Assembly (NCBI RefSeq): GCF_002138415.1
Contig: NZ_CP015612.1
Coordinates: 3,698,001 to 3,762,000 of the forward strand
Direction: 5' to 3'
Length of the DNA: 64,000 nt
From: Stenotrophomonas maltophilia
GTDB lineage: Bacteria; Pseudomonadota; Gammaproteobacteria; Xanthomonadales; Xanthomonadaceae
The first letter of the stretch is position 1; the number at the start of each line of letters is the position of its first letter. Below the pieces are notes generated by a model, which was given only the letters and a program-made list of their open reading frames with translations, was not told the origin of the DNA and did no database searches. This document shows, piece by piece, positions 44,225 through 63,580 of this stretch. The translations under genes were made by a program, and so were the position numbers.

Positions 44225-44868
44225 AGTACGCCCCGCACCCGCGGCAGATCGTGCGCTACCGCGCACCGACCCGTATCAACCACTGGATCGTGGCGATCTG
44301 CTTCGTGCTGACGGCGCTGTCCGGGCTGGCCCTGTTCCACCCTGCCCTGTTCCCGCTGACCCAGCTGTTCGGCGGTGGGCCGTGGACGCGCATCCTGCAT
44401 CCGTTCATCGGCCTGGCCATGGTGGTGGGATTTGCGCTGCTGGCTTTCCGCATGTGGCGCGACAATCTGCCGACCGCCGACGATGGCAAGTGGATGCGCG
44501 GCATGCGCGATGTGCTGCGCAACGAGGATGAGAAGCTGCCGCCGGTGGGCCGCTTCAATGCCGGCCAGAAACTGCTGTTCTGGTCGATCATCGGTTGCCT
44601 GTCGGCGCTGCTGCTGACCGGCTTCGTGATCTGGCGGCAGTACTTCAGCCACTTCTTCCCGATCGGGGTGATCCGCTTCTCGGTACTTGCCCATGCGCTG
44701 TTCGGCTGGGTGCTGGTCTGCGCGATCGTGGTGCACATCTATGCGGCGATCTGGATCAAGGGCTCGGTGCGGGCGATGACCCAGGGCAAGGTGACCTATG
44801 GGTGGGCGTACAAGCATCACCGGCAGTGGTTCCGGGACATCCTGCGCGGACGGCGGGAAGAGGGTTAG
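44221..44868 (+). CDS. fdnI: Formate dehydrogenase-N gamma subunit (cytochrome b556)
   Basis: A 215-residue four-helix membrane subunit with two b hemes that reduces quinone. Candidate heme ligands are the histidines in [32 protein letters not shown] and VVHIYAAIW, matching FdnI/FdoI. It overlaps fdnH by four bases, completing the structural operon fdnGHI. After its stop a 390-base region with three kinds of hairpin precedes fdhE. Confidence 0.95.
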
Positions 44869-44935: not shown

Positions 44936-45037
44936 GGCGGGGTGGGTCCGGTTGCGGGGGACGCCGTAAACCCGTCCCTGGGGGCTTGGCCGCGGCATCC
45001 ATGCCGCGGACACCCCCGCAACCGGACCCACCCCGCC
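44936..45037. repeat. Two-level hairpin element, copy A
   Basis: A perfect 25-bp outer stem (44936-44960 with 45013-45037) encloses about 52 bases that contain an inner palindrome CCGCGGCATCCATGCCGCGG (44990-45009). The internal segment GACGCCGT..CCC.TCCCTGG.GGCTTGG is shared with the elements at 60311 and 60570, whose outer stems have other sequences. It lies 68 bases after the fdnI stop. Confidence 0.9.
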
Positions 45038-45085
45038 TTCGACAGAGTTCTGCGATCTGTCGGGACGGCGTTCTGAGTTGCTGTT

Positions 45086-45110
45086 GGTGGGTGTCGACCT
45101 TGGTCGACAC
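45086..45110 (+). repeat. SMAG/REP palindrome
   Basis: GGTGG head followed by stem GTGTCGACC/GGTCGACAC. It lies between the large hairpin and the GGGGTC-type hairpin, upstream of fdhE. Confidence 0.75.
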
Positions 45111-45132
45111 AATGAACACGGCAACAACCGAT

Positions 45133-45173
45133 GGGGTCAGATCCGCTTTCCTATGGAAAACGGATCTGACCCC
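45133..45173. repeat. GGGGTC-type hairpin, copy 4
   Basis: Arms GGGGTCAGATCCG(C)TTTCC and its complement GGAAAACGGATCTGACCCC with a 3-base loop; about 85 bases before fdhE. The 390-base fdnI-fdhE gap therefore contains three different repeat classes and little else. Confidence 0.85.
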
Positions 45174-45257
45174 AACCATTTCAAATGGCCGGCAGTGCGC
45201 TGGACGCCAGCGCCGACAACGGCGAGGATGGAGGCTGGTTCTTCTGGCTGGCCCTGC

Positions 45258-46241
45258 ATGGCGCAACGCATCCTTGAACCCGGTGAGATCGAGACACTGG
45301 CCTCGCGCGATGTTCCGCGCATCATCCTGCCCGATGTCGCTTCCCTGTTCGCCGAGCGCGCGACGCGCCTGCGCAACCTGGCTGCGCACAGTGCCATCGG
45401 CGGTTACCTGCAGCTGCTGGCGGCGTTGGCAGATGCACAGCAGGCACTGCTGGACGAACTGACACCACAGCAACGCGAAGCGCTGCAATCGCAGGCACGC
45501 GCGCAGCAGTCGAGTGCGGCGGCCGGCGCGGGGATGCCGTTGCGGCCGGCCAACACACTTCAGCTGGATGGCCGTTGGCGCGACTGGCTGCGCACGCTAT
45601 GCCGGCACTGTGCCGACGAAGCGGGGCTGCCGGCGGAAACCCGTCAGGAGCTGCAGCGCGTCGCCGCGGCCGACGACGCTTGGCTGGATGCGCAGGCGCA
45701 TGCGGTGCTGGAGCGTGATGACGCGCCGTCGGTGGATGCGGTCGCTGCGCTGCTGGTGATGAACGCGCTGCAGGTGTACTGGGCAGTGCTGGCGGACAGC
45801 TTCCGCCCCGCCGAGCTGAAGCCGCTGGCCGATGCACCGGGGCTGTGCCCGCTGTGCGGCACCCTGCCGGTGGTCAGCGTGGTGCAGGCACGGCCGCCCT
45901 ATGCGTCCTACCGCTACCTGTCGTGCTCGCTGTGCGCCTGCCAGTGGCACTACGTGCGTGTGCAGTGCAGCCAGTGTGGCACCGCCGGCAAGGACATCGC
46001 CTACCGCGCCCTGGCCGATGTGGATGGCGACAGCGGCGAGGCCGTGCGCGAGAGCGCGGTCCGTGCCGAGACCTGCGACCACTGCCACAGCTACCGCAAG
46101 ATCCTGTATCTGGAAAAGGATCCCTCACTGGAACCGGTCGCCGATGACCTCGGCACGCTGGCACTGGACCTGCTGCTGGGCGAGGAAGGTTATGCGCGCG
46201 CCAGCCAGAATCCGCTGCTGTGGCAATCCGACGGCGAGTGA
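45258..46241 (+). CDS. fdhE: Formate dehydrogenase accessory protein FdhE
   Basis: A 327-residue cytoplasmic protein needed for activity of membrane-bound formate dehydrogenases; it is thought to act on maturation of the catalytic subunit. The C-terminal half has rubredoxin-like Cys motifs: [24 protein letters not shown] and CDHCHSY, as in E. coli FdhE, where they bind iron. The N-terminal half is helical ([20 protein letters not shown]). Start ATG 45258 ([10 protein letters not shown]). Five bases separate its stop from selA. Confidence 0.94.
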
Positions 46242-46245
46242 GGCG

Positions 46246-47670
46246 ATGACAGCCATGCCCCCCACCCCGGCATCGGTTTCCGCGCTGCCCTCGCTGGACC
46301 GGTTGCTGCGTCTGCCTGCCTTGGCAGCATTGATCAACGGCCACGGCCGCAGCCGTATCACCCAGCTGCTGCGTTCGCACCTGCAGGCGCTGCGCGATCG
46401 TGTCAGCGCCGGCCAGCTCTCGGCCACGCAGCTGCAGGAAGCGGTTGACGGCCCGGCGCTGGTGGCAGCAGTCGAGGCCGCACTGGCCGCTGATGCACGG
46501 TTGGACCTGCAGCCGATGTTCAACCTGACTGGCACCGTGCTGCACACCAACCTTGGCCGCGCACTGCTGCCCGACGCCGCCGTGCACGCGGTCACCCGCG
46601 CGATGACCGCGCCGGTGGATCTGGAGTTCGACGTTGTCCGTGGTCGTCGCGGCGACCGCGATGCACGGGTGCAGGCATTGATCTGCGAACTGACCGGCGC
46701 TGAAGCCGCCACCGTGGTCAACAACAATGCTGCGGCGGTCCTGCTGCTGCTCAACAGCCTGGCCAACCGCCGCGACGTGGTGGTGTCACGCGGCGAGCTG
46801 GTGGAGATCGGCGGTGCCTTCCGTATTCCCGATGTGATGCGCAGTGCCGGCGCGCGGCTGCTGGAAGTGGGCACCACCAACCGCACCCACCCGGCCGACT
46901 TCGCCCACGCCATCGGCACCCGCACCGCGCTGCTGATGGAGGTACACGCCAGCAACTACGCGATCACCGGCTTCACCGCCAAGGTCGACACTGCGGCGAT
47001 GGCAGCGATCGCGCACGAGCATGGCCTGCCGCTGGTGGTGGACCTGGGCAGTGGCAGCCTGTGCGATCTGGCCACGTTCGGCCTGCCGCACGAACCCACC
47101 GTGCAGGAAACGCTGGCGGCCGGCGCCGATCTGGTGTCGTTCAGCGGCGACAAGCTGCTGGGTGGTCCGCAGGCCGGCATCATCGCCGGCCGCGCCGACC
47201 TGATCGCTCGAATCAACCGCAACCCGCTGAAGCGGGCACTGCGCATGGACAAGATGGGGCTGGCCGCACTGGAAGCGGTGCTGGCCCTGTACCGCGAGCC
47301 GGAGCTGCTGGCACAGCGACTGCCGACCCTGCGCACGCTGTCGCGCACACAGGATGACATCGATGCGCAGGCCCAGCGCCTGCTGCAACCGATGCGTGCT
47401 TCGCTGGCGGCAGACTACACCCTCGTGCCTGCGCCGATGTGCAGCCAGATCGGCAGCGGCGCGCAGCCACGGGCGCAGCTGGCCAGCGCCGGACTGCGCA
47501 TTGCCAGCGCACGCCGTGGCGGACTGGATCGCCTGGCCAAGCGCTTGCGTCAGCTGCCGCGGCCGGTGCTGGGCCGCATCGCCGATGACGCGTTGTGGCT
47601 GGACCTGCGCTGCCTGGAACCCGCAGACGAAGCGGTTTTCCTGGCCCAATGGGACATGCTGCAGGCATGA
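46246..47670 (+). CDS. selA: L-seryl-tRNA(Sec) selenium transferase
   Basis: A 474-residue PLP enzyme converting Ser-tRNA(Sec) to Sec-tRNA(Sec) with selenophosphate. The PLP lysine is Lys303 in [15 protein letters not shown], and the sequence [18 protein letters not shown] and [13 protein letters not shown] are typical. The N-terminal domain (about 15-70, [20 protein letters not shown]) binds the tRNA. Start taken at ATG 46246; ATG 46255 is possible. Its stop overlaps selB by ATGA. Confidence 0.97.
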
Positions 47671-49598
47671 TCGTCGGCACCGCCGGGCATATCGACCATG
47701 GCAAAACAAGCCTGGTGCGTGCACTGACCGGCATCGAAACCGATCGCCTGCAGGAAGAACGCACGCGTGGCATCTCCATCGAACTGGGTTACGCCTATGT
47801 CCCGGTGGAAAGCACGGAGGACGACGGTCCGTCGACAACGCTGGGCTTCGTCGACGTGCCGGGCCATGAGCGCTTCGTGCATACGATGGTGGCCGGCGCC
47901 ACTGGCATCGACGTCGCCCTGCTGGTCGTTGCCGCCGACGACGGGGTGATGCCACAGACCCGCGAGCATCTGGCCATCCTGCAACTGCTGGGCGTGGATC
48001 GCGGTGCGGTGGCCCTGACCAAGATCGACCGTGTGGATGCGGCGCGCATTGCCCGGGTCGAGATCGAGATCGCTGCGCTGCTGGCCGCGACACCACTGCA
48101 GGATTCCCCTCTGTTCGCCTGCAACAGCACCGCACCCGACGATGCCGGCATCCGCGCACTGCGTACCCAGCTGCACGCGTGGGCGGCGGACAACGCCAGC
48201 ACGCGCCAGGCCGAACTGCGCAACGAACTGTTCCGCATGCCGGTGGACCGCGTGTTCTCTCTGGCCGGCCACGGCACACTGGTGACCGGCGCGGTACATG
48301 GCGGCATCGCCGCGGTGGGTGAGCATCTGCAGCTGATGCCGGCCGCCACTGAGGTGCGCGTGCGCAGCATCCACGCACAGAACCAGGCCAGCGACCACGC
48401 GATGGCCGGGCAACGCTGCGCGTTGAACCTGGCCGCCATCGCCCGTGACGAGATTCATCGTGGCGACTGGATTGCCGACCCGCGCGCGCTGCTGGCCACT
48501 ACCCGCGTCGACGTGCGCCTGCGGCTGTCCGCGTTGGCCGCACCGTTGCGCGACTGGGCGCCGCTGCATATTCACTGGGGCACGATGCACCGGCAGGCCC
48601 ATGTGGTGCTGCTGGAGGACCACGACCACGGCGATGGGCAGTTGGTGCAACTGGTGTTCGATGCACCGGTCTGCGCGATGTGTGGCGATCGTTTCATCGC
48701 ACGCGATTCAGCGGCCACCCACACGCTGGGCGGTGGCATCGTGCTCGATCCGGACCCGCCACAGCGGCGCCGGCGCAGTCCTGCACGGCTCGCGTGGCTG
48801 GGAGCACTGGAGCAACTGGCCGCGGGTGCGGGAATCGGCCCACTGTTGCAGCAGGCGCCCTTCGGCATTGCCATGGCCGCGCTGCAGCGCTACTGCCGGC
48901 GTGCGGCCGACCGGATCGATCTTCCTGCAGACGCACAGCGCATCATCACCCGCGAAGACACGGTGATCATCCTCGCCTCGCACTGGCAGGCGCTGCGCGA
49001 GCAGGTGATCACCTCGCTGCGCGGCTGGCACGAGCGACGCCCGGACGAACCCGGTGTCGACAGCGGGCGCCTGCAGCGCAGCACCCTGCCCTCGCTTGCA
49101 GCGAGCCTCTGGAATGCGCTGCTGCAGGACCTGCTGGCCGATGGCACGCTGCAGCACGTGGGCGCGTGGTGGCGCCTGCCCGGCCATGACCATGCGCCGC
49201 CGGAACGCGAACGTCTCCTGCTTGAACGCGTGCTGCCGCAACTGCACGCCGGTGGCTTCGATCCACCGTGGGTGCGCACCCTGGCCGCCGACATCGGACT
49301 GGCCGAAGACGAGTTCCGCGCCGCTCTGCGTCGCGCCGCCGCGCGTGGCGATCTGTTCCAGGTGGTGCCCGACCTGTTCTATGCGCCGGCCCGCATCGCC
49401 GAGTTGGCCACGATCGTCGCGCAGCTGTCACAGGCCAGCGGCACGGTGGATGCAGCGGCGTTCCGCGATGCCATCGGCCTCGGCCGCAAACGCAGCATCC
49501 AGATCTTGGAGTTCTTCAATCGCGTTGGCTACACTCGACGCGTCGGTGACCAGCATCGGCCGCGCGGCGACCTGCAGTGGAACGCAGCCCGCGACTGA
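47667..49598 (+). CDS. selB: Selenocysteine-specific translation elongation factor SelB
   Basis: A 643-residue GTPase that brings Sec-tRNA(Sec) to UGA codons next to SECIS hairpins. The N-terminal EF-Tu-like part has G1 [14 protein letters not shown]3 DVPGHERF and G4 TKID; residues [10 protein letters not shown] form switch I. C-terminal winged-helix domains (from about residue 375 on, ending ...[20 protein letters not shown]) bind the SECIS loop. Start ATG 47667 overlaps the selA stop; the upstream extension of the frame is within selA. Confidence 0.97.
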
Positions 49599-49622
49599 GC
49601 CCACCGGTACCGCCGTACTTTC

Positions 49623-49718
49623 GGAAGGCATGCGCATCCGGGCATGCGGCTGGGCTTCAAACCCAGTAGGGGGCGTCGATCGTTCCCTGGTAGGTTCGAC
49701 TCCTGCTGCCTTCCGCCA
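49623..49718 (+). tRNA. selC: tRNA-Sec (anticodon TCA)
   Basis: A 96-base tRNA with the selenocysteine-specific shape: an 8-bp acceptor stem (GGAAGGCA with TGCCTTCC), discriminator G and encoded CCA (ends 49718), a long D stem (CGCAT/ATGCG), anticodon stem CTGGG/CCCAG with TCA at 49657-49659, a long variable arm and T arm GTAGG-TTCGACT-CCTGC. It reads UGA. Placed 24 bases after selB and 26 bases before selD. Confidence 0.97.
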
Positions 49719-49744
49719 TTCGTGTTTCCGCAGGAGATGTCGGC

Positions 49745-50824
49745 ATGGCCACGCACGCGCAGTCCCCCGCTCCTTCAACGGCCGATGCCCCGCAACGACT
49801 GACGTCTCTCGCGCATGGCGGTGGCTGCGGCTGCAAGATCGCGCCGGGCGTGCTGACCGAACTGCTGCGTGGGGTTCCGGCGCTTCCGGCACCGGCTGAG
49901 CTGCTGGTCGGCCGTGAGACCAGCGACGACGCGGCGGTGTACCGCCTCGATGACCGACAGGCGATCGTCGCCACCACCGATTTCTTCATGCCGATCGTCG
50001 ACGACCCCTTCGACTTCGGCCGCATCGCCGCCACCAATGCCTTGTCGGATCTGTACGCGATGGGCGCGCGCCCGCTGTTCGCGCTGGCCATCGTCGGCAT
50101 GCCGATCAACACGCTCCCGCAGGACACCATCCGCGGCATCCTGCAGGGCGGCGAACGCGCCTGCGCCGATGCCGGCATCGTGGTGGCTGGCGGCCACAGC
50201 ATCGATTCGGTGGAACCCATCTATGGCCTGGCCGCGATCGGCGTGCTCGATCCGCAGCGGCTCAAGCGCAATGCCGATGCCCGCGCCGGCGATGTGCTGG
50301 TGCTGGGCAAGCCGTTGGGTGTGGGCGTGTATTCGTCGGCACTGAAGAAGGAGATGCTGGATGCTGACGGCTACCGGCAGATGATCGAGTCGACCACCCG
50401 CCTGAACAGCGTGGGCGTGCCCCTTGCCGCGCTGGACGGCGTGCACGCGATGACCGACGTCACCGGCTTCGGCCTGCTCGGCCACCTGCTGGAAGTGTGC
50501 CGCGCCAGCGGCGTCGCCGCCGAAGTGGACAGTGCACAGGTGCCGCTGCTGCCGCAGACCCTGGACCTGCTGCAACGCGGCTGCGTGACCGGCGCCTCCA
50601 ACCGCAACTGGGCTTCCTATGGCGCCGAGGTGCGCTTCGCCGAGGGCTTGCCCGCCCATTGGCAGCCGCTGCTGACCGACCCGCAGACCAGCGGTGGCCT
50701 GCTGGTGTCCTGCGCCCCGGAGGCAGTGGATGCGGTGCTGGCCAGCTTCCACGACGCGGGATTCGGCCAGGCGGCCGTGGTGGGGCGCTTGAGCGAAGGA
50801 ACGCCGGGCGTGAACGTGGTTTGA
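49745..50824 (+). CDS. selD: Selenide, water dikinase (selenophosphate synthetase)
   Basis: A 359-residue AIR-synthetase-fold enzyme making selenophosphate from selenide and ATP. The catalytic site is in AHGGGCGCK: Cys28 and Lys31 correspond to the essential Cys17/Lys20 of E. coli SelD; the residue is Cys, not Sec. Other signatures: TTDFFMPIVDDPFDFGRIAA, TNALSDLYAMGA and VTGFGLLGHLLE. Start ATG 49745 with AGGAGA upstream. Last gene of the plus-strand selenium block. Confidence 0.97.
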   Translation: MATHAQSPAPSTADAPQRLTSLAHGGGCGCKIAPGVLTELLRGVPALPAPAELLVGRETSDDAAVYRLDDRQAIVATTDFFMPIVDDPFDFGRIAATNALSDLYAMGARPLFALAIVGMPINTLPQDTIRGILQGGERACADAGIVVAGGHSIDSVEPIYGLAAIGVLDPQRLKRNADARAGDVLVLGKPLGVGVYSSALKKEMLDADGYRQMIESTTRLNSVGVPLAALDGVHAMTDVTGFGLLGHLLEVCRASGVAAEVDSAQVPLLPQTLDLLQRGCVTGASNRNWASYGAEVRFAEGLPAHWQPLLTDPQTSGGLLVSCAPEAVDAVLASFHDAGFGQAAVVGRLSEGTPGVNVV

Positions 50825-50867
50825 GACGTGAAGGTTTGCCAACGTGCCGCTTCCGGGGACTTGAATT

Positions 50868-51386
50868 ATGTCCAAAATATTGGACACTCAAGCCATGAAC
50901 CTGATCGACATCGGCAAGGCGGTTCGTGCCCGCCGTGAGCAGCTTGGCCTGTCGCAAGGCCAACTGGCTCATCTCAGCGGCCTGTCCCGGCAGACCGTGG
51001 TCGGCCTGGAGGGGGGCACCCTGAGCGACCTGGGTGTCAATCGCGTGGGACAGTTGATGGCCGTGCTCGGTCTGGATGTACCGGCACCCACCACCGAAAG
51101 CCGGCTGCGCAAGCAAGGCCTGAAAATGGCTGCACGCACCGCGAACGTGAGCTACGCGAGCGAACTGACGGCTGACGAGTTGGCGCGCGTACTGGTCAGC
51201 GGAGAAGTTCCTGCCACCTACGCGGCGCAGATGGCGCACCTGCTGGATGAAGCCCCTCCCGCCATGATGGTGATGGCAGTCGAAGAAGCTGCAATCGGCG
51301 CGCAGATGCCACCACGGCGCGTCTGGCGCAACGTGGCGAAGATGGCCAACACACTTTCTGCCCATCGCAAGGACCTATGGATGTGA
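50868..51386 (+). CDS. XRE-family helix-turn-helix regulator / putative antitoxin
   Basis: A 172-residue protein (163 if translation starts at ATG 50895, MNLIDIGKAV). The N-terminal 65 residues are a Cro/CI helix-turn-helix (IGKAVRARREQLGLSQGQLA then HLSGLSRQTVVGLEGG). The rest is helical without known motif. Start is uncertain: GGGGA eight bases before 50868 favours the long form, while an operator-like palindrome overlapping 50869-50886 favours the short form. It overlaps the AbiEii-like gene by 10 bases, the arrangement of antitoxin-toxin pairs of the AbiE type. Confidence 0.82.
   Translation: MSKILDTQAMNLIDIGKAVRARREQLGLSQGQLAHLSGLSRQTVVGLEGGTLSDLGVNRVGQLMAVLGLDVPAPTTESRLRKQGLKMAARTANVSYASELTADELARVLVSGEVPATYAAQMAHLLDEAPPAMMVMAVEEAAIGAQMPPRRVWRNVAKMANTLSAHRKDLWM
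50869..50886 (+). promoter_or_regulatory. Palindrome at the XRE gene start, candidate autoregulatory operator
   Basis: TGTCCAA-AATA-TTGGACA, perfect 7-bp arms around a 4-base AT core, at the 5' end of the gene. TTGCCA lies about 30 bases upstream as a possible -35. Confidence 0.6.
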
Positions 51387-52036
51387 ACCGCGAATTGCCT
51401 GCCGGCGCCTGGCAGGCGCTGCTGCCCCGGGCGCTTGTCCTCATCGGGGAGATCCGGCGCCACGGCGGCATCACCGATCCGTTCTGGACGTTGGGCGGCG
51501 GAACGGTACTGATGTTTCGACATCGGCACCGACTCAGCAAGGACATCGACATCTTCCTGCCGAATCCCCAGTACCTGGGATTCGTTACTCCCCGCTTGAG
51601 CGATGTGGCCGCGAGCCTTACCGGCGACTACAGCGAAGATCCCAGCGCCTGGGTGAAGCTGCAGTTCGAGGAGGGCGAGGTGGATTTCGTCGCGGCCCCC
51701 AATCTTCTCGATGATGCCTGGGAGGAATGGACGATCGATGGTCAGCGCATACGGGTGGAAACGTCGGCGGAAATCATCGCCAAGAAAATGTTCCATCGCG
51801 GGCATAGAACAACCGCCCGAGACCTGTTCGATCTTGCGCTGGTCATCGAACGCGAGCCGGACGCGCTGGCGGCCGCCGCGCACGCGCTGGTCCGCCATCG
51901 ATCAACGTTTCTTGATCAGATCCGCAATCCCCACCCGACATTGAAGATTGCGTTCAAGGCCATCGACACGCTGGACTACACGCCAGGCTTCGACCACTGC
52001 GTCGCGATAGCCGGGGACTACCTGGAAGGACTTTGA
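51377..52036 (+). CDS. Nucleotidyl transferase AbiEii/AbiGii toxin family protein
   Basis: A 219-residue nucleotidyltransferase-fold protein. The motif LGGGTVLMFRHRHRLSKDID, continuing IFLP, supplies the GG...S.DID pattern typical of AbiEii toxins (metal-binding Asp pair in DID), and EIIAKKMFHRGHRTTARDLF is the conserved helical segment with the K.HR..RD signature. Related toxins modify tRNA 3' ends. With the overlapping XRE gene it forms a likely toxin-antitoxin unit or phage-defence pair directly after selD. The substrate is unknown. Confidence 0.85.
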   Translation: MDVNRELPAGAWQALLPRALVLIGEIRRHGGITDPFWTLGGGTVLMFRHRHRLSKDIDIFLPNPQYLGFVTPRLSDVAASLTGDYSEDPSAWVKLQFEEGEVDFVAAPNLLDDAWEEWTIDGQRIRVETSAEIIAKKMFHRGHRTTARDLFDLALVIEREPDALAAAAHALVRHRSTFLDQIRNPHPTLKIAFKAIDTLDYTPGFDHCVAIAGDYLEGL

Positions 52037-52061
52037 TCCTCCCAGGCGATTGCGCAGAACA

Positions 52062-52922
52062 TCACTCGATGTTCTGCACCTGTTCGCGGATCTGGTCGAT
52101 CAGCACCTTCAGCTCCACCGCCGCATTGGAGGTGCGGCTGTCCACCGACTTCGAGCCCAGCGTATTGGCTTCGCGGTTGAACTCCTGCAGCAGGAAGTCC
52201 AGGCGGCGACCGACCGGCTCGCGCTGCTTGAGCACGCGGCGGATTTCCACGATGTGGCTGCCCAGGCGGTCCAGTTCCTCATCCACGTCCAGCTTCTGCA
52301 GCCACAGCACCAGTTCCTGCTCGGCGCGGCCGGGATCGACCGGGTGCGGCAGGTCAGCCAGGCGTGCGGCCAGCTTGGCGCGCTGGCCGTCGCGAATGGC
52401 CGGAATCAAGGTGCGCACTTCGGTGGCGATGCGTTCGATGCCGTCCACACGCTCGCTGATGGCCGCGGCCAGCTTGCCGCCTTCGCGCTCACGGGCCTCG
52501 ACGAAGCCGTCCAGCACCTGGTCCAGCAGGGCCAGTGCCTCGACCTGCAGGGCGGCGGCATCGGTGGCCTCGCCGCGGGTCACGCCCGGCAGCTGCAGCA
52601 GGTCGGTGAAGCTGACCTGCAGGTTGGGGAAATCGGAGGTCAGGCGGTGCGCCAGGCGGCCCAGCTGGCCCAGCAGGGCCTCGTCGACCTGCAGGTTGGC
52701 GGCCGCTTCCGGCGCGCGCAGGCGCATCACCAGATCCAGCTTGCCGCGGCTCAGGCGCGCGGCGATGCGCTCGCGCAGCTGCGGTTCGAGCGCCCGCAGT
52801 TCCTCGGGCAGGCGGGTGCCGACCTCCAGGAAGCGGTGGTTGACCGAGCGCAGCTCGCAGCCCAGCGTGCCCCACGGGGTAACCCGCTCGCCGCCGGCGT
52901 AGGCGGTCATGCTTCGAATCAT
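52062..52922 (-). CDS. yicC: YicC/YloC-family endoribonuclease
   Basis: A 286-residue protein of the YicC family, recently recognised as ring-shaped endoribonucleases. The start [20 protein letters not shown] then [12 protein letters not shown] and the C-terminal DUF1732 part ([20 protein letters not shown] then KSVD) are diagnostic. The conserved Glu/His/Asp positions of the C-terminal region are present. Divergent from rph, the common arrangement in proteobacteria. Its stop faces the AbiEii-like gene stop with 25 bases between. Confidence 0.95.
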
Positions 52923-53046
52923 GGATTGTGTCCGGTGCGTGCAAAGGGGGAATGGTACCCTAGCGCCCTCACCACAGCCCCCTTGCCCGCCCCGTGAAGG
53001 CTGCGGGCGTGGCGGCGTACTCCCACGCCATTACGGAACCCGCACC

Positions 53047-53772
53047 ATGTCCGATTCCCGCCCCAGCGGCCGCCAGCCCGACCAGCTCCGCCCGGTCGTC
53101 ATCCAACGCGGCTTCACCCGCCACGCCGAAGGTTCGGTGCTGGTGTGCTTCGGTGAAACCCGCGTGCTGTGCACCGCCAGCGTCGAGAACCGCGTGCCGG
53201 GCTTCCTGCGCGGCAAGGGCGAAGGCTGGGTGACCGCCGAGTACGGCATGCTGCCGCGCGCCACCCACACCCGCAGCGACCGCGAAGCCGCCCGTGGCAA
53301 GCAGAGCGGCCGCACGCTGGAGATCCAGCGCCTGATCGGCCGCAGCCTGCGTGCCTGCGTGGACCGCAACGCGCTGGGCGAGCGCACCATCACCCTCGAC
53401 TGCGACGTGCTGCAGGCCGACGGTGGCACCCGCACCGCTGCCATCACCGGCGCCTACGTGGCCCTGGTCGATGCGGTGAACGTGCTGATGAAGCGTGGCG
53501 ACATCAAGCGCAACCCGATCCTGGGCGCGGTGGCCGCCGTGTCCGTGGGCGTGTACCGCGGCACTCCGGTGCTGGACCTGGACTACGCCGAAGACAGCGA
53601 CTGCGACACCGACATGAACGTGGTGATGAACGACGGCGGCGGTTTCATCGAACTGCAGGGCACCGCCGAAGGCCATGCCTTCCGTCGCGATGAACTGGAC
53701 GCGCTGCTGGGCCTGGCCGAAAAGGGCGTGCGCGAGCTGCTGGACGCACAGCAGGCGGCGCTGTCGGCATGA
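53047..53772 (+). CDS. rph: Ribonuclease PH
   Basis: A 241-residue phosphorolytic exoribonuclease that trims tRNA 3' ends using phosphate. Signature segments: [58 protein letters not shown] and [17 protein letters not shown]. Start at ATG 53047 ([10 protein letters not shown]). The stop overlaps the downstream VOC gene by ATGA. Confidence 0.98.
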
Positions 53773-54158
53773 ACCGGCGCATCGCCCTGACCACCCTGGT
53801 GGTGGCCGACTACGACGAAGCCATCGCCTGGTACACCGGCAAGCTCGGCTTCGCGCTGCTGGAGGACATCGACCAGGGCCACAAGCGCTGGGTGGTGGTG
53901 GGCCCGACCGACGGCAGCGCCGCCGCCCTGCTGCTGGCCCGTGCCAGCGACGAGGAACAGCGCAGCCGCATCGGCAACCAGACCGGTGGCCGCGTCGCCT
54001 TCTTCCTCAACACCGACGACTTCCACCGCGACCACGCGGCGATGCTGGCCGCCGGGGTCGAGTTCCTGGAAGCGCCGCGCGAAGAACCCTATGCAACGGT
54101 CGCGGTGTTCCGCGATCTGTATGGCAACACCTGGGACCTGCTGGAGCCCCGTCAATGA
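53769..54158 (+). CDS. VOC-superfamily (glyoxalase/dioxygenase-like) protein
   Basis: A 129-residue single-module VOC protein. [20 protein letters not shown] then [15 protein letters not shown] begins the first beta-alpha-beta-beta-beta unit, and [20 protein letters not shown] is the second, with the terminal Glu (DLLEP) as likely metal ligand. Exact substrate is unknown. It is wedged between rph and rdgB with four-base overlaps on both sides, so it is probably translated with them; rdgB removes damaged nucleotides, which may hint at a housekeeping role but proves nothing. Confidence 0.9.
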
Positions 54159-54751
54159 AGAAACTGGTACTGGCCAGCCACAACGCCGGCAAGCTGGTGG
54201 AGATGCAGGAGATTCTCGCCGACCTGCCGCTGCAGATCACCTCGGCCGCCGAGCTGGGCCTGGGCGACGTGGAAGAGACCGGCCTGACCTTCGTCGAGAA
54301 CGCGCTGCTGAAGGCGCGCGCGGCCTGCGAAGCGACCGGCCTGCCGGCGCTGGCCGATGATTCGGGCCTGATCGTCGATGCCCTCGGCGGTGCACCGGGC
54401 CTGTACAGCGCGCGCTATGCCGGCCACCCGACCAACGCCGCAGCCAACAACGCGAAGCTGCTGGAGGCGATGGCCGACGTTCCCGATGGCCAGCGCGGCG
54501 CCCGCTTCTATGCGGTGATCGTGCTGCTGCGCCACGCCACGGACCCGCAGCCGCTGATCTGCGAGGGCCGCTGGGAAGGGCAGATCATCCGCGAACTGCG
54601 TGGCACCAATGGCTTCGGCTACAACCCGGTGTTCCTGGATACCACCCACGGCCTGACCGCCGCGGAGATGGAGCCGGCCCTGAAAAATGCCATCAGCCAT
54701 CGTGCCCTCGCCCTGCAGCAGCTCAAGCAGCAGCTGGCCACCTGGCTTTGA
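54155..54751 (+). CDS. rdgB: RdgB/HAM1 non-canonical purine NTP pyrophosphatase
   Basis: A 198-residue enzyme hydrolysing dITP, ITP and XTP to monophosphates, keeping deaminated purines out of DNA and RNA. Conserved stretches: LVLASHNAGKLVEMQEIL (nucleotide-binding), ETGLTFVENALLKARAAC, LPALADDSGLIVDALGGAPG (catalytic Asp) and GTNGFGYNPVF with SHRALAL near the end. Starts by ATGA overlap with the VOC gene. Confidence 0.98.
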   Translation: MKKLVLASHNAGKLVEMQEILADLPLQITSAAELGLGDVEETGLTFVENALLKARAACEATGLPALADDSGLIVDALGGAPGLYSARYAGHPTNAAANNAKLLEAMADVPDGQRGARFYAVIVLLRHATDPQPLICEGRWEGQIIRELRGTNGFGYNPVFLDTTHGLTAAEMEPALKNAISHRALALQQLKQQLATWL

Positions 54752-54775
54752 CGCCTTGCTGAATATCCAAGGGAA

Positions 54776-54797
54776 GCCGGCCAGCGGCCGGCACTAC
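54776..54797 (-). repeat. SMAG/REP palindrome at the hemW start
   Basis: Minus strand GTAGTGCCGGCCGCTGGCCG, continuing GC: a canonical GTAG element ending three bases before the hemW ATG. It replaces any recognisable ribosome-binding site for that start. Confidence 0.85.
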
Positions 54798-54799
54798 CG

Positions 54800-56035
54800 A
54801 TGAAGCCCATGCCGCACGCCCACGACCACTGCAACCACCTGCCCGGCGAAGCCTGCCCGGCGGATCACAACGCGGCGCCGCGCCTCGTACCGCCCCCGCT
54901 GTCGCTGTACGTGCACCTGCCGTGGTGCGTGCGCAAATGCCCGTACTGCGATTTCAATTCGCACCAGGCCAAGGGCGAACTGCCGTTCGATGCCTACATC
55001 GATGCGCTGCTGCGCGACCTCGACCAGGACCTGCCGCTGGTCTGGGGCCGGGTGGTGCACAGCGTGTTCTTCGGTGGCGGCACGCCCAGCCTGTTCCCGC
55101 CGGAAGCGATCGACCGCTTCCTGCAGCAGGCCAGCGCGCGCCTGCGCTTCGCACCCAACGCCGAAATCACCCTGGAAACCAACCCGGGCACGGCCGAGCA
55201 TGGCCGTTTCGACCGCTACCGCGCGGCCGGCGTGAACCGCCTCAGCTTCGGCATCCAGAGCTTCGACGACGCCATGCTCAAGCGCCTGGGCCGCATCCAC
55301 GACAGTGGCGAAGCCGAGCGCGCGGTGAAGATGGCGCAGGACGCGGGCTACGACAACTTCAACATCGACCTGATGTACGCGCTGCCGGAACAGACCCTGG
55401 CCGGCGCAGAGGCCGATCTGGAGCGCGCCTTCGCACTGCAGCCTGCGCATATCTCGCACTACCAGTTGACCCTGGAACCGAACACGGTGTTCTTCGCGCG
55501 GCCGCCGCAGGGTATTCCCGATGAAGACAATGCCTGGGACATGCAGGAACACTGCCAGGCGCTGCTGGCACAGGCCGGCTTCGGCCAGTACGAGGTCAGC
55601 GCCTACGCGCGCCCCGGTCGGCAGAGCGCGCACAACCTGAACTACTGGCGTTTTGGCGACTACCTGGGCATCGGTGCCGGCGCACACGGCAAGATCAGCT
55701 CGGGCGCCGAGGAACACGTGCTGCGCCGCTGGAAGCTGAAGCATCCGCAGGCTTACCTGGACAACGCCGGCACCCCGGCCTCGTTCGGGGGTGACGATGT
55801 GATCGCGCCCGAGCGCCTGCCGTTCGAGTACATGCTGAACCTGCTGCGCCTGCACGAAGGTTTCGGCCTGCGCGATTTCGAGTCGCGCACCGGGCTGCCG
55901 CGCAGCGTGCTCGATGCACCGCTGGCCGAGGCCGTTCAGCGCGGCTGGCTGGACGTGACGGATGGCCATGTGCTGCCAACCGAGCTGGGCCGCCGCTTCA
56001 CCAACGATGTGGTGAGCCTGTTCCTGGAGGAGTGA
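54800..56035 (+). CDS. hemW: HemW-type radical SAM heme chaperone (former HemN-like protein)
   Basis: A 411-residue radical SAM protein. The [4Fe-4S] motif is CVRKCPYC in LSLYVHLPWCVRKCPYCDFN, with GGGTPSLFP and ETNPGT for SAM binding. It lacks the extra features of true coproporphyrinogen oxidase HemN; HemW is a heme-transfer protein. Compared with E. coli HemW, which begins just before PPLSLYIH, there is an extra N-terminus of about 30 residues rich in His and Cys (MPHAHDHCNHLPGEACPADH). No later start codon fits, so the extension is probably real. The first ATG follows a SMAG hairpin by two bases. Confidence 0.94.
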   Translation: MKPMPHAHDHCNHLPGEACPADHNAAPRLVPPPLSLYVHLPWCVRKCPYCDFNSHQAKGELPFDAYIDALLRDLDQDLPLVWGRVVHSVFFGGGTPSLFPPEAIDRFLQQASARLRFAPNAEITLETNPGTAEHGRFDRYRAAGVNRLSFGIQSFDDAMLKRLGRIHDSGEAERAVKMAQDAGYDNFNIDLMYALPEQTLAGAEADLERAFALQPAHISHYQLTLEPNTVFFARPPQGIPDEDNAWDMQEHCQALLAQAGFGQYEVSAYARPGRQSAHNLNYWRFGDYLGIGAGAHGKISSGAEEHVLRRWKLKHPQAYLDNAGTPASFGGDDVIAPERLPFEYMLNLLRLHEGFGLRDFESRTGLPRSVLDAPLAEAVQRGWLDVTDGHVLPTELGRRFTNDVVSLFLEE

Positions 56036-56052
56036 TCCTCCTGCCTCGCATC

Positions 56053-56116
56053 CGCCGGGCATGGCCCGGCGCTACCCAGCAGGCAAGCGCCCGGTAGCGC
56101 CGGGCCATGCCCGGCG
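56053..56116. repeat. Inverted SMAG/REP pair
   Basis: 56053-56076 (minus) and 56093-56116 (plus) are the same element, GGTAGCGCCGGGCCATGCCC plus GGCG, in head-to-head orientation 16 bases apart, between hemW and the DUF1631 gene. They could also pair with each other to make a larger cruciform or hairpin. Confidence 0.85.
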
Positions 56117-56210
56117 AACAAGGGGCACGTTCACCCTAAAGTAGCGCCGACTGCGGCCGACACGGTAGATTCACAGGATCGATCCGCGGGAATCCGGGTA
56201 CCGCTCGCCG

Positions 56211-58490
56211 ATGTCAGCTGTCTTTTCCATCACCTCTGCCGACAAAGCCCGCCTGGCCGCCAGCGACCTGCCACCGCGGGTGCGTGAGCTGCTGGGTGCG
56301 TTGATCGGCCTGTGCCGGCAAACGCTGGCCGCGCCCCTGATCCTGACCGTCGAAGCGCTGGAGCAGACGCTGCTGCACGACGCCGACCGCGCACGCAATC
56401 CGATGCAGCAGGCGGACCTGATGGCCCAGCGTGGCCAGCTGCATGCGTTCGCCGGCCACTTCGCCGACCGCATGCTCGATGCCGTGGCCGAGGCGCTGGC
56501 GGGCCTGCGCGAGCCACCCACCGCCGCTGCGGCGAATACTTCTCCACCGCCGCTGCCGGGCATGCTCGGCCTGTCGCTGGTCGATGAGCATGAGGTGGAT
56601 CGCGACCTGCTGCTGACCGAAATGATCCGGCGCGAGACGCTGCGCTCGACCAACACGCTGAACCTGCTGGGCCAGCGCCTGGGCGTGCTCGCTGCGGCGC
56701 CAGCCTTCGAGGCCGACACCCTGCCACTGGCACCGCAGGCCCTGTGCGCGATGGTGCGCCGGATCGCCGAACAGGACGCGCTCGGCGTGGAGGTGCAGCT
56801 TGCGCTGTACCGCAGCTTCGAGCGGCAGGTGCTGGAGCGCCTGGGCGATGTGCTGGACCGCGCCAACGCGCTGCTGGCCCAGCACGGCGTGCTGCCGGGG
56901 CTGGTCTACACCCCGTACCTGGCGCGCTCGTCGAGCACCCGGCGGATCCTCACCCAGTCGGTGGGCGGCGGCCGCGCAACCCAGCCTGCCAAGCGTGCCG
57001 CCGCGCCGTTGACCGGCTGGAACGGCTCTGCCCCCGCCGGTTCCTGGTCGAACCTGGTGCAGGACGCCTTCAACGATGCGGTCACCCCGGGCGCCGCAGC
57101 CCCCGGCGTGACCACGTCCACCGGCAGTGCGCTGCATGAACTGCTGCAACAGGCGCGCCACGCCACGGCGCCCCCCGCAGATGCCGCTGCCGTGCCCAGT
57201 GCGGCGGTCGATGCGGTCCTCGCGCGGCTGCAGGCCCAGTCCAGCGCGGCCACCGGCGTCGCCGACCTGCAGGCTGCGGTAGTCGCCCAGCTGCGCAGCG
57301 AGCACGGCGCGCAGGCCCAGTTGGGCAGCCACGACCGCGACAACCTCGACCTGCTGCGCATGCTGATGCAGCAGGTACAGCAACAGCAGCGCCCCGACCC
57401 GGTACCGGCCGCCCTGCTGGCGCGCCTGCAGGTTCCGCTGGCGCGTGCGGCGATGGCCGACCCCGGCTTCTTCGTACGCGACGAACACCCCGCACGCGAA
57501 CTGCTCAACCAGATTGCCGAAGTCGGCGCCAACTGGCTGGGCGACGATGATGTAGACCCCCAGCTGCTGCAGCGCATGGCGCAGAGCGTGCAGGGCCTGC
57601 TCGGCCAGGATGCGCGCTCGCCCGAAGCCTTCGCCACCGCCAACGAAGACGTGCAGCAGCACCAGCGCGCGGCGGCCCATCGCGCCGAACTGGCCGAGCG
57701 CCGCCACGTCGAGGCCGCGCGTGGCAAGGAACGGCTGGAACTGGCGCGTCGCCAGGCCAATGCACAGATCGACCAGTGCTGCGACGCACAGGATCCGCCG
57801 CGCTTCGTGCAGACCCTGCTGCGCCAGGCCTGGGCCGATGCACTCACCCTCACCCGCCTGCGCCATGGCGACGATTCACCGCAGTGGCAGGAGCGCCTGC
57901 ACCAGACCGAGCGCATCGCCGCGGTGACCGCGCAGGCCGTCGACGCGCCCGGCGGTACCGATGCATCGCTGGCCAGCGATGTCGAGTCCGCGCTGGTGCA
58001 GGTCGGCTATCACGCCGAAGAAGCGGCCGCCGTTGCCCGCCGCCTGGCCACGCCCGGTGGCGAGGACGAAAGCACCTCGCGCACTGAACTCAGTGCCCGG
58101 CTGAAGGCGCGTGCACGGTTGGGCGAACATGCCGCCAGCGGCGGCGGCAATGCCGCGCTCGCACCGCGCAGCAGCGCCGAAGAGGCCGCCTACCAGCAGC
58201 TGGCCACCCTGCCCTTTGGCAGCTGGTTCGACATCGACAACGGTGACGGCACCCAGCGCCGCCAGCGCCTGTCCTGGTACAGCCTGCTGACCGGCCACGC
58301 GCTGTTCGTCAATCCGCGCGGGCAGAAGATCGCCGATACCGACCTCGATACGCTGGCCCGGCAGATCAGCGCCGGGCGCGCGCAGCTGGTCACCGAAGAC
58401 AAGGGCCGGCTGGTCGATCGCGCGTGGCAGGCCAGCCTCGGCGCGCTGCGTGCGCTGGCCGGCGGCCGTTCCAAGGAGACGTCCGCTTGA
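56211..58490 (+). CDS. DUF1631 family protein
   Basis: A 759-residue soluble, mostly helical protein. Segments such as PPRVRELLGALIGLCRQTLA, LPGLVYTPYLARSSSTRR and QLATLPFGSWFDI near the C-terminus fit DUF1631, a family found in proteobacteria often next to or fused with PilZ domains. The middle (about 230-330) is Ala/Pro rich and probably flexible. The C-terminal region (about 655-750) has a beta-rich module typical of the family. It is followed at once by a PilZ gene, which suggests a role in cyclic-di-GMP signalling, an inference from context. Confidence 0.85.
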   Translation: MSAVFSITSADKARLAASDLPPRVRELLGALIGLCRQTLAAPLILTVEALEQTLLHDADRARNPMQQADLMAQRGQLHAFAGHFADRMLDAVAEALAGLREPPTAAAANTSPPPLPGMLGLSLVDEHEVDRDLLLTEMIRRETLRSTNTLNLLGQRLGVLAAAPAFEADTLPLAPQALCAMVRRIAEQDALGVEVQLALYRSFERQVLERLGDVLDRANALLAQHGVLPGLVYTPYLARSSSTRRILTQSVGGGRATQPAKRAAAPLTGWNGSAPAGSWSNLVQDAFNDAVTPGAAAPGVTTSTGSALHELLQQARHATAPPADAAAVPSAAVDAVLARLQAQSSAATGVADLQAAVVAQLRSEHGAQAQLGSHDRDNLDLLRMLMQQVQQQQRPDPVPAALLARLQVPLARAAMADPGFFVRDEHPARELLNQIAEVGANWLGDDDVDPQLLQRMAQSVQGLLGQDARSPEAFATANEDVQQHQRAAAHRAELAERRHVEAARGKERLELARRQANAQIDQCCDAQDPPRFVQTLLRQAWADALTLTRLRHGDDSPQWQERLHQTERIAAVTAQAVDAPGGTDASLASDVESALVQVGYHAEEAAAVARRLATPGGEDESTSRTELSARLKARARLGEHAASGGGNAALAPRSSAEEAAYQQLATLPFGSWFDIDNGDGTQRRQRLSWYSLLTGHALFVNPRGQKIADTDLDTLARQISAGRAQLVTEDKGRLVDRAWQASLGALRALAGGRSKETSA

Positions 58491-58861
58491 ACACGCAACC
58501 GCCGCAGGACACCCGCCGCGCGCCGCGCCGCCAGGTCTCGGACCTGGTGCCGGTCACCGACCAGATGCGCGAAAGCGTGGTGGGCCGGCTCGGCAATGTC
58601 TCCGAGACCGGCATGCTGATGCTGGCCAGCACGCCGCTGCGCGAGGATGCGCTGTACCAGTTCCGCTTCCCGCTGCCGATGGGCGACGGCCGCCACGAGG
58701 CCATCGACGTGGGCGTGCACCTGCTGTGGAGCGAACCGGCGCATGCGCCGGGCCAGAGCTGGACCGGCTTCCGTTTCCTCACCCTGTCGCGCGAGCATCG
58801 GCAGCTGCTGCGCCAGTGGGTAGGCGAAGACAGCGACGAGGGGCCGGTTTCGACGGCCTGA
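58487..58861 (+). CDS. PilZ domain protein, TTG start
   Basis: A 124-residue single PilZ domain. The c-di-GMP-binding motif RxxxR is seen in RRAPRRQV (about residues 10-17) and the second motif (D/N)xSxxG as NVSETG (about 37-42), so ligand binding is plausible. No ATG fits: the best start is TTG at 58487, with AAGGAG eight bases upstream and a 4-base overlap with the DUF1631 stop. The frame extending to an ATG at 58424 lies inside DUF1631. Confidence 0.85.
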   Translation: MNTQPPQDTRRAPRRQVSDLVPVTDQMRESVVGRLGNVSETGMLMLASTPLREDALYQFRFPLPMGDGRHEAIDVGVHLLWSEPAHAPGQSWTGFRFLTLSREHRQLLRQWVGEDSDEGPVSTA

Positions 58862-58936
58862 GTGCCGGTTCCAGCACAGCGGTTTTCCCCGGTATGCGGC
58901 AGAATCTAGGGCCGTTTTCCGTGTCGAGCCACCGCA

Positions 58937-60268
58937 ATGATCCAGCAAGACCCCGGCGCCCTGTATCCCGACCACCTGGCCGTGCTGTGCCGACGTGCCG
59001 AACAGGCGCTGGCCCGCGGCGGCTTCGATCACCTGGTGGTGCCCAGTGGCACCCTGCACTACCAGGTGTTCGACGACCGCGACTACCCGTATGCGGTGAA
59101 CCCGCAGTTCAAGGCCTGGCTGCCGCTGACCCGCGTGCCCAACAGCTGGATCGTGTTCACCCCCGGCAAGCGCCCGGCGGTGATCTTCCACCAGCCCTTC
59201 GATTACTGGCACGTGGTGCCCGATGCGCCGAGCGGCTGGTGGGTGGAGCACTTCGACATCCACATCATCCGCAAGCCCGAAGAGGCGCTGGCCCTGCTGC
59301 CGGCCGACCCGTCGCGCTGCGCGATCCTCGGCGAGCCGCAGAGCGCGCTGGGCAACTACGTGCCGAACAACCCGGCGCCGGTGGTGAACTACCTGGAATG
59401 GCACCGCGGCAGCAAGACGCCGTATGAAATCGCGCTGATGCGCCAGGCGCAGGTGCTGGGCGTGCGCGGCCACCGCGCCGCCGAAGCCGCGTTCCGCAAC
59501 GGCGCCGACGAGTTCAGCATCCACATGGCCTACTGCCAGGCCGTCGGCCAGGACGCCAACGAGCTGCCCTACGGCAACATCGTGGCGCTGAACGAACACG
59601 CCGCCGTGCTGCATTACACCGAGCTCGGCCGCAAGGCACCGCAGCCGCTGCGCAGCTTCCTGATCGATGCCGGCGCCAGCGCGCACGGCTATGCCAGCGA
59701 CATCACCCGTACCTACGCTGCGAACGGCCACGACGAATTCGCTGCGATGATCGCCGCCGTCGACGCCGCCCAGCAGCAGATGTGCGCGGCGGTGCGCCCG
59801 GGCTTCGACTACAAGCAGCTGCACGTGGACGCACATCTTTCGCTGATGGGCGTGCTGAAGGACTTCGGCGTGATCAAGGTGTCGCCGCAGACCGCGCTGG
59901 AAACCGGCGTCAGCGCCGCGTTCTTCCCGCACGGCATCGGCCACCTGATCGGGCTGCAGGTGCACGACGTGGCGGGGTTCGCGGCCAGCGACGAAGGCGG
60001 CCGCATCGAGCGCCCGGCGGGCCACCCGTACCTGCGCCTGACCCGCGTGCTGGAACCGGGCATGGTGGTGACCATCGAACCGGGCCTGTACTTCATCGAC
60101 ATGCTGTTGAATGAAGTGAAGGACGCCGGCCATGGCGATGCGATCAACTGGGACCGCGTGGACTTCTTCCGTCCGTATGGCGGCATCCGCATCGAAGACG
60201 AAGTGCTGTGCACCGAGGGCGAAGCGGACAACCTGACGCGGCCGGAGTTTGCGGCGGCGAACGGCTGA
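58937..60268 (+). CDS. pepQ: Xaa-Pro dipeptidase PepQ
   Basis: A 443-residue metallopeptidase (prolidase, M24), the same length as E. coli PepQ. The N-terminal creatinase-like domain has VNPQFKAWLPLTRVPNSWIV. Metal ligands lie in SFLIDAGASAHGYASDITRT (two Asp), FFPHGIGHLIGLQVHD (His), VTIEPGLYFI (Glu) and GGIRIEDEVL (Glu). It hydrolyses X-Pro dipeptides and can also cleave organophosphate esters in this family. Convergent with pepP; two large hairpins lie between. Confidence 0.96.
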   Translation: MIQQDPGALYPDHLAVLCRRAEQALARGGFDHLVVPSGTLHYQVFDDRDYPYAVNPQFKAWLPLTRVPNSWIVFTPGKRPAVIFHQPFDYWHVVPDAPSGWWVEHFDIHIIRKPEEALALLPADPSRCAILGEPQSALGNYVPNNPAPVVNYLEWHRGSKTPYEIALMRQAQVLGVRGHRAAEAAFRNGADEFSIHMAYCQAVGQDANELPYGNIVALNEHAAVLHYTELGRKAPQPLRSFLIDAGASAHGYASDITRTYAANGHDEFAAMIAAVDAAQQQMCAAVRPGFDYKQLHVDAHLSLMGVLKDFGVIKVSPQTALETGVSAAFFPHGIGHLIGLQVHDVAGFAASDEGGRIERPAGHPYLRLTRVLEPGMVVTIEPGLYFIDMLLNEVKDAGHGDAINWDRVDFFRPYGGIRIEDEVLCTEGEADNLTRPEFAAANG

Positions 60269-60310
60269 GCCCCTCGTGGTTGGGCGCTTGGAGCAAAAGC
60301 CGCGCTTGGC

Positions 60311-60408
60311 GGGGCGGGGTGGGTTCGCGGGGGACGCCGTGAATCCATCCCTGGAGGCTTGGCCGCGGCATCCATGCCGCGGACACCCCCGCGAACCCAC
60401 CCCGCCCC
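60311..60408. repeat. Two-level hairpin element, copy B
   Basis: Outer stem 60311-60333 with 60386-60408, 23 bp perfect, sequence different from copies A and C. Inner palindrome CCGCGGCATCCATGCCGCGG (60363-60382), identical to that of copy A. Internal consensus GACGCCGTGAATCCATCCCT, then GGAGGCTTGG. Confidence 0.9.
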
Positions 60409-60490
60409 ACCTCTGACAGTTTCCTGCGCGCGTCCAACCACGGAAAAGAAAAAGAAGATCAAAAGCGGGTCGCTCGCTGCGCTCGCTCTG

Positions 60491-60514
60491 TGTCGACCAA
60501 GGTCGACACCTACC
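60491..60514 (-). repeat. SMAG/REP palindrome
   Basis: Minus strand GGTAGGTGTCGACCTTGGTC, continuing GACA, between hairpin copies B and C. The same stem occurs at 45086 next to copy A. Confidence 0.75.
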
Positions 60515-60569
60515 AACAGCCGCGCGTGCCAACAACCGCCGTTACCAACGGCCGCGTGAACCTGTCGAA

Positions 60570-60671
60570 GGCGGGGCACTGTGGGTTTGCGGGGTGTGAG
60601 CCGCATGGATGCGGCGACCAAGCCTCCAGGGATGGATTCACGGCGTCCCCGCAAACCCACAGTGCCCCGCC
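60570..60671. repeat. Two-level hairpin element, copy C (inverted)
   Basis: Outer stem 60570-60594 with 60647-60671, 25 bp perfect and unlike A or B (GGCACTGTGGGTTTG within the arm). Inner palindrome GCCGCATGGATGCGGC (60600-60615). The loop sequence is the reverse complement of copies A and B. The 484 bases between pepQ and pepP hold only these elements. Confidence 0.9.
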
Positions 60672-60752
60672 ATCCCACGGAATGCCCGCTTTGGCCTTGG
60701 CTTTGGCTGTTGCCTCTGCGGGTGCAGGGCTGCAAGCCCTGCAGAACACCTC

Positions 60753-63393: not shown

Positions 63394-63580
63394 GCGTTCT
63401 CTGCGGTACTCGACGGCATGTGCAAACATTCGCCTTGTCCCTTAAGAACGACACCGGGAGCGCGACAGCGCCGGGAGTGCAGGTCCGCCTTGTAGCGGGA
63501 AGCCCGATGGTTCTCCAGCGTTCCCACTTGAGCCCCCGGGTTCAAGGTCGTTTCGCATGCATCGACATTGCGGAGAATGC
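63394..63580 (+). ncRNA. ssrS: 6S RNA (ssrS)
   Basis: The 366 bases between zapA and ygfA hold a 6S-like RNA of about 187 bases. The 5' end GCGTTCTCTGCGG and 3' end GCGGAGAATGC can form the closing stem, with a second paired block CGACGGCATG / CATGCATCG; the centre can fold into a long interrupted hairpin with an open bubble that mimics promoter DNA and binds sigma-70 RNA polymerase. A TATAAT at 63382-63387 sits about seven bases before the proposed start. Ends are estimated from pairing, and the position before ygfA is the conserved one. Confidence 0.87.

Follow-up and report, generated by a model that had tools for sequence, protein, structure and literature searches.

What keeps a hairpin perfectly paired while its sequence changes? 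The question is raised by three elements in the window, a 64,000-nt stretch of Stenotrophomonas maltophilia DNA, for which a first-pass annotation had described outer arms of 23–25 bp that differ in sequence yet each pair perfectly with themselves. All three were recovered where that annotation had placed them (Table 1), with mutually different, perfectly paired arms of 25, 23 and 25 bp in copies 1, 2 and 3 and with predicted RNA minimum free energies of -85.7, -82.0 and -76.7 kcal/mol, respectively; none of 200 shuffles of each copy folded as well (z-scores in Table 1). The internal segment that they had been said to have in common gave three matches in the window with 0 mismatches used (≤3 allowed) and none in 100 shuffles. 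Throughout, the R strand denotes the complement of the GACGCCGT strand; it is the one that shows the loops as CANGGANG, and copy strands are given as the R strand. Copy 3 is inverted relative to copies 1 and 2, and copies 2 and 3 form a pair whose R strands diverge. The gene before copy 1 (stop at 44868) we take to be FdnI/FdoI-like, and the gene just before copy 2 (stop at 60268) is presumably pepQ-like.

Table 1. Elements and their parts in the window (strand given as the R strand; CM, covariance model).
Feature	Position	Strand	Evidence and remarks
Element copy 1	44936..45037	-	fold z -7.70; CM match G000:C1:3742930-3743051; ORF analysis; single copy
Copy 1, P1 arm (25 bp)	44936..44960	.	partner 45013-45037
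Copy 1, P1 partner arm	45013..45037	.	
Copy 1, P2 loop and closing pair	44973..44980	-	R strand CAGGGACG; sequence and alignment structure
Copy 1, P3 loop and closing pair	44996..45003	-	R strand CATGGATG; sequence and alignment structure
Element copy 2, left pair member	60311..60408	-	fold z -8.73; CM match
Copy 2, P2 loop	60346..60353	-	R strand CAGGGATG
Copy 2, P3 loop	60369..60376	-	R strand CATGGATG
Spacer separating copies 2 and 3	60409..60569	.	contains SMAG-like stem 60490-60509
Element copy 3, right pair member	60570..60671	+	fold z -8.35; CM match
Copy 3, P3 loop	60604..60611	+	CATGGATG
Copy 3, P2 loop	60627..60634	+	CAGGGATG

A covariance model, which the annotation had proposed building, took the family far beyond three copies. 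Built on the copies of this genome, model R1 gave at least 133 matches in the same genome at E 0.001 (150 of 4516 candidates scored), and BLAST of the genome with the core gave at least 41 matches, one of them weak (40 of 70 candidates scored). Distinct copies in this genome number at least 144, a lower bound because only the best 150 of 261 matches were aligned, the 261 including many opposite-strand shadows; 93 of 99 fetched loci were searched for this count, and these 93 also contain the elements of the other six. Thirteen of the 144 are copies of ~200 nt that carry an insert.

An alignment, A1, that took in 29 of the 30 copies found first (the one with an insertion was excluded) revealed a structure of 42 pairs in three helices, in which a conserved three-way junction with two small hairpins, P2 and P3, forms a head atop P1, a long stem of free sequence. 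P2 consists of GCC, a 5-nt bulge, a short stem and a loop, the bulge being conserved as UUCAC, UUUAC or CUUGC. Among the 1217 cells of A1, 97.0% are paired, a value that falls to 39.5–46.6% when the partner is slid, and 25 of the 42 pairs show two-sided changes; four of five covariation measures were reached by none of 500 shuffles and the fifth, pair types, by 33. A core model (R2), built on 33 diverse sequences whose members were picked with the loop pattern, showed 90.8% of 693 cells paired and two-sided changes in 16 of 21 pairs, its five measures being reached by 0, 3, 0, 107 and 0 of 500 shuffles. The C-G pair that closes each loop never varies in these 33 loop-pattern-picked sequences, with variation at the adjoining positions. 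Nothing in Rfam scored above the gathering threshold over the window elements or 15 loci of other lineages, in line with the earlier failure to match a named family, and no title or abstract among those listed described the family. Six of its core words occurred in none of 5.39 million papers searched, a scope that leaves aside supplements and most subscription papers. From their sequences, the elements appear to form a large family of DNA repeats of mobile appearance, present in many gammaproteobacteria and seemingly undescribed.

On the R strand the P2 and P3 loops both read CANGGANG, which is the published hairpin site of CsrA/RsmA. This site is given as 5'CANGGANG3' or A/UCANGGANGU/A, with the SELEX consensus RUACARGGAUGU, in an excerpt of PMC6849547, and as ACARGGAUG for RsmA in an excerpt of PMC3937308; the hairpin-loop position of GGA in Csr/Rsm sites is described in an excerpt of PMC4347634. 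CANGGA(N)G, with N free, was found in P2 of 84 and in P3 of 83 of 95 covariance-model matches from 69 loci, counts that are less biased than regex-limited ones, although loops of this kind, and part of these same loci, had gone into the training of the model. In some copies the P3 loop is only five bases long and still reads ANGGA, and the GGA-to-GGA distance in the window copies is 20 nt, counted by eye. Non-xanthomonad relatives were found with a pattern of gap 12–24, which fixes their P2 and P3 loops, passes over the prevailing xanthomonad form with its gap of 10 and says nothing about frequency. Relatives from Rheinheimera, Arsukibacterium and Saccharospirillum have a further 5' hairpin, whose loop carries GGA at a fixed place preceded by free bases in 61 of the 61 copies matched by a hairpin pattern that leaves GGA unspecified. 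By eye, a fourth hairpin was often seen in those relatives, as in GGCATGGATGCC.

The R-strand head, the sole widely conserved part of the element, thus has the layout of two paired CsrA/RsmA sites, two CANGGANG-loop hairpins on a three-way junction, such that RNA of R-strand sequence would bind one dimer of CsrA/RsmA. We judge it slightly more probable than otherwise that the element is a non-autonomous, MITE-like mobile hairpin with a head that, as RNA, is bound by CsrA/RsmA, the long stem presumably holding and protecting the head. The presence or absence of GGA does not by itself decide whether RsmA binds: X. citri RsmA did not bind the hrpC or hrpE leaders despite their GGA, according to an excerpt of PMC3937308, and RsmU retained RsmA binding after each of its four predicted GGA had been altered, according to an excerpt of PMC7694677.

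R1 matched 34 of 120 genomes and 15 of 44 genera in the family of the window's host, and the arms of one genus bear no relation to those of another; a species belonging to the window's own genus gave no R1 match. The first-pass annotation had held that the hairpin, not its sequence, is maintained, naming unpaired outer arms in other genomes as the finding that would speak against it; the other genera carry unrelated arms that are nevertheless paired, which supports the annotation's view. Across Gammaproteobacteria, R2 matched 74 of 370 genomes, about one in five, and 62 of 272 genera (per-genome counts reaching 29 in the R1 survey or 14 in the R2 survey are to be read as at least those numbers). 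csrA was matched in 73 of the 74 element-bearing and in 251 of the 296 other genomes (Fisher P 2e-4, genome handles compared by eye), an association that is confounded because csrA-negative genomes are often small; the genome G334, in 270 contigs, had 9 matches to the element and none to csrA. A metagenome-assembled genome labelled Verrucomicrobia (MAG G156), a label that may reflect binning, carries many copies and csrA. Plasmids gave a single match, which was partial, with 52% coverage at E 3e-6, phages none with one query, and viral contigs none with the gap 12–24 pattern, from which the main xanthomonad form is excluded. This breadth, the copy number, the three-way-junction head, the CsrA/RsmA-type loops, the strand asymmetry described below and the mobile-element hallmarks in young families all go beyond the first-pass annotation.

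The gene-conversion-like copying that the annotation had suspected was seen at the pepQ-like locus, where 30 loci were fetched and 18 species or strains were readable (no stop was located in 10, and 2 ran off a contig). The flanks there are alike, and arms plus head differ en bloc between several species, in both members of the pair; mismatches in some arms have the look of breakpoints of exchange, and the head has suffered partial deletion in some loci and is absent in 3 of the 18. Covariation among copies must therefore be partly exchange and not only compensatory mutation, and copies within a genome would exchange arms plus head by recombination. The en bloc replacement and the apparent breakpoints, together with the low frequency of wobble mismatches (~2–3% of P1 pairs), are also what would be expected if the hairpins had no function and were perfect only through templated quasi-palindrome correction and gene conversion between copies. 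We consider this very unlikely, as the loops and junction persist from one bacterial family to another and the arms do not, and as correction predicts no strand bias. Wobbles in P1, counted over distinct contexts with the outermost four pairs excluded, favoured R-strand G.U over A.C by 24:8, 5:1, 18:4, 6:3 and 16:3 in five slightly overlapping sets, or 69:19 overall (P 4e-8; two sets were non-significant alone, P 0.11 and 0.25), the P values being optimistic because the copies are related. The covariance-model-aligned copies of this genome gave 47:18, and a first count that included the stem ends gave 73:16 (122 of 133 copies located by regex, 11 skipped). Mutations within the arms were nearly symmetric (G to A 48/2247, C to T 52/2173), as were those of both flanks taken together (G to A 36/1393, C to T 45/1531), with a mild bias in the same direction in the 3' flank alone (C to T 14/624 vs G to A 5/614). 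The wobble bias indicates that the hairpin of one strand is under constraint, either as RNA or as ssDNA of one strand.

Gene contexts, taken from our own frame-model gene calls, were convergent for 50 of 133 copies, divergent for 12, tandem for 32 and 30 in the two orientations and unresolved for 9; read in the GACGCCGT orientation, 88 copies lie downstream of a gene on the same strand and the other 45 do not. From these counts promoters seem to be avoided, with no sense preference, and the annotated location after gene 3' ends, which holds for all three window copies, is genome-wide a tendency only. Close pairs in this genome are always head to head: all 45 neighbour pairs less than 600 bp apart had one order, GACGCCGT strand + then -, at 96–261 bp, independently of the flanking genes (17 convergent, 15 tandem and 2 divergent among the 34 pairs then known), and, where the flanking genes converge, the R strands of pairs are directed at the 3' ends of those genes. 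The same order was found for 12 of 19 pairs at 69 loci, nearly all from other genomes, with other orders for 7. A link of arm classes with the leading or lagging strand was weak with the origin assumed near coordinate 0 (class A, lag 31 and lead 17; class B, 28 and 22; unclassed, 18 and 17).

The very stable stems and the enrichment between convergent over divergent genes would suit terminators, or stabilisers of mRNA 3' ends, that replace ordinary intrinsic terminators at gene ends, as would the finding that two of the three headless pepQ-like loci (L309 and L311) have, by eye, ordinary U-tract terminators. We regard this role as unlikely, given that no U-tract follows the stems, that terminator-like sites at 60200–60800 numbered 1 against 0.7 expected, that copies between tandem genes show no sense bias, and that the conserved loops and junction would be left unexplained. 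A sense 3'-UTR element was likewise dropped after the orientation counts, and a 3'-UTR sense role is not favoured by the random orientation in tandem contexts and the R-strand direction in pairs. The 60200–60800 interval, which covers the spacer, contained no sigma-70-like site, the scanned promoter type, and none was expected by chance.

Evidence for mobility comes from two lineages. MAG G156 has 12 head-bearing units of 187–192 bp with common terminal repeats and two further, headless units (38 terminal-end matches), and identical 4-bp flanks adjoin 10 of the 14, against a mean of 1.75 and a maximum of 7 in 2000 shuffles. One Methylotuvimicrobium copy interrupts a host repeat with a TA duplication relative to an uninterrupted stretch of the same repeat, although a truncated element in turn comes after that comparison stretch, and the right end has 134 matches at ≤3 mismatches in Methylotuvimicrobium buryatense. 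The hallmarks of MITEs, namely terminal inverted repeats, target-site duplication and no gene, were thus found in G156 and at one Methylotuvimicrobium site, and the elements of the window's genus may be mobile in the same manner. Ends and duplication lengths differ between the lineages (TA at one site vs 4 bp), so that the head and not the ends is the common part; copies would spread via lineage-specific ends, probably served by different transposases. It is conceivable, though doubtful in our view, that the element acts at the DNA level alone, the head being a ssDNA hairpin whose GGA loops are the recognition bases of a transposase or accessory protein and whose likeness to CsrA sites is chance. 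The terminal repeats and target-site duplications fit such an element, as do the patchy and high copy numbers and the random gene orientation in tandem contexts, and the one-strand wobble bias is equally expected for ssDNA of one strand. The variable ends and duplication lengths imply no single transposase, and yet the head is conserved; ANGGA is kept through changes of loop size and in the extra hairpin, which fits a known RNA site; and no linked transposase, which with a known transposon end was the annotation's other stated counter-evidence, was found in a small search (330 bp upstream of 30 of the 134 M. buryatense end matches).

If the head does bind CsrA/RsmA as RNA, the reading that we prefer, the effect could be that of a decoy, of a cis site in the RNA of neighbouring genes reached by read-through, or of recruiting CsrA for the element's own regulation. 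The 144 or more copies would amount to up to 288 CsrA/RsmA-like sites. We raise only tentatively the possibility that selfish mobile hairpins captured or evolved from a CsrA/RsmA decoy, act jointly as an RsmA sponge dispersed over the genome or bring new genes into the Csr network as they move, and are the main RsmA antagonists of xanthomonads beside RsmU. The family is a structured element without an Rfam match, found in roughly a fifth of the gammaproteobacterial genomes sampled, with over a hundred copies in one; were it bound by CsrA/RsmA, mobile DNA would shape a regulator that acts globally after transcription, and the identity of the RsmA antagonists of xanthomonads would become a testable question.

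Among known repeats, ERIC, Correia/NEMIS and RUP are short intergenic palindromic repeats with terminal repeats, target duplication and internal structure, and our element resembles these MITEs by description rather than by sequence comparison; neither a three-way junction of this kind nor CsrA-like loops are known to us to have been reported for them. SMAG/GTAG REPs are also multi-copy intergenic palindromes, and SMAG-like GTGTCGACC stems adjoin the elements at 45091–45110 and 60490–60509, where the annotation had noted neighbours with a GTCGACC stem. REPs are palindromes of 20–40 bp, according to the abstract of PMC3733652, whereas the window copies are branched, 98–102 nt long and have arms of 23–25 bp, so that membership was rejected and the annotation's view of them as longer than SMAG/REP was borne out. 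RsmU of Xanthomonas campestris, the one RsmA antagonist that we found reported in xanthomonads, is likewise a xanthomonad RNA with GGA motifs that binds RsmA, but it is confined to one locus in the 3'-UTR of a comEA gene, according to an excerpt of PMC7694677, unlike the scattered elements; it was rejected as a family member, as searching with R2 around comEA-like genes in 4 genomes, the flanks of which were taken as the RsmU locus from the gene, brought no match (lowest E 0.67). Homologues of rsmB were not identified in Xanthomonas, according to an excerpt of PMC3937308. The several GGA-apical-loop hairpins of the CsrB/CsrC and RsmX/Y/Z sRNAs recur in the element, Rheinheimera-type members having at least three, and the CsrB/RsmZ-type feature of several GGA in hairpin loops is present. 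Unlike those sRNAs, the elements are scattered and mobile-looking, occur in tens to over a hundred copies, are enclosed by a long stem of free sequence and gave no Rfam match; at the one pair examined, neither a promoter nor a terminator was recognised.

In the contig of the S. maltophilia source genome (G000:C1), five copies of the hairpin element, near 189500, 469342, 480483, 3473222 and 3672680, all carry a shared interrupting sequence (either TGATCTGGCCCCCC or the complement of this), with the break point falling at a nearly identical position after P3. The insert lying between 469461 and 470864 encodes a transposase, IS3-like in appearance by its motifs, and the combination of a common interrupting sequence, a near-identical break point and this transposase suggests that an IS favours the element hairpin as an insertion target. 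In two further copies of the same contig (1681371 and 3368443), the P2 loop was split by another insert with a GTCACTTCACC end; the insert located between 3366807 and 3368443 encodes a protein which, judged by eye, resembles an IS4-type transposase.

Longer and modified forms of the element were also observed, including variants of approximately 200 nt that carry a structured insert (13 copies in the source contig, for example 61137-61339) and the Methylotuvimicrobium copies L423 and L424, which possess an additional inserted hairpin with the opposite-strand loop GCCATCCATGGC. Among the 120 genomes surveyed from the window's bacterial family, loci L154 and L159, from two genera with one detected copy apiece, had the element at an identical place, upstream of a kbl-like gene.

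Rfam matches located in the window
RNA	Window positions	Source
SECIS_3	40813-40871	Rfam
tRNA-Sec	49623-49714	Rfam
6S RNA	63395-63580	Rfam

A csrA match was not found in genome G334 despite nine element matches there, the sole exception among the 74 element-bearing genomes. In four genomes (L433-L436), the region 3' of comEA-like genes was conserved and contains a U-tract terminator as well as several hairpins with GGA; it is probably the locus of RsmU, the RsmA-binding RNA from the 3'-UTR of a comEA gene in Xanthomonas campestris (PMC7694677).
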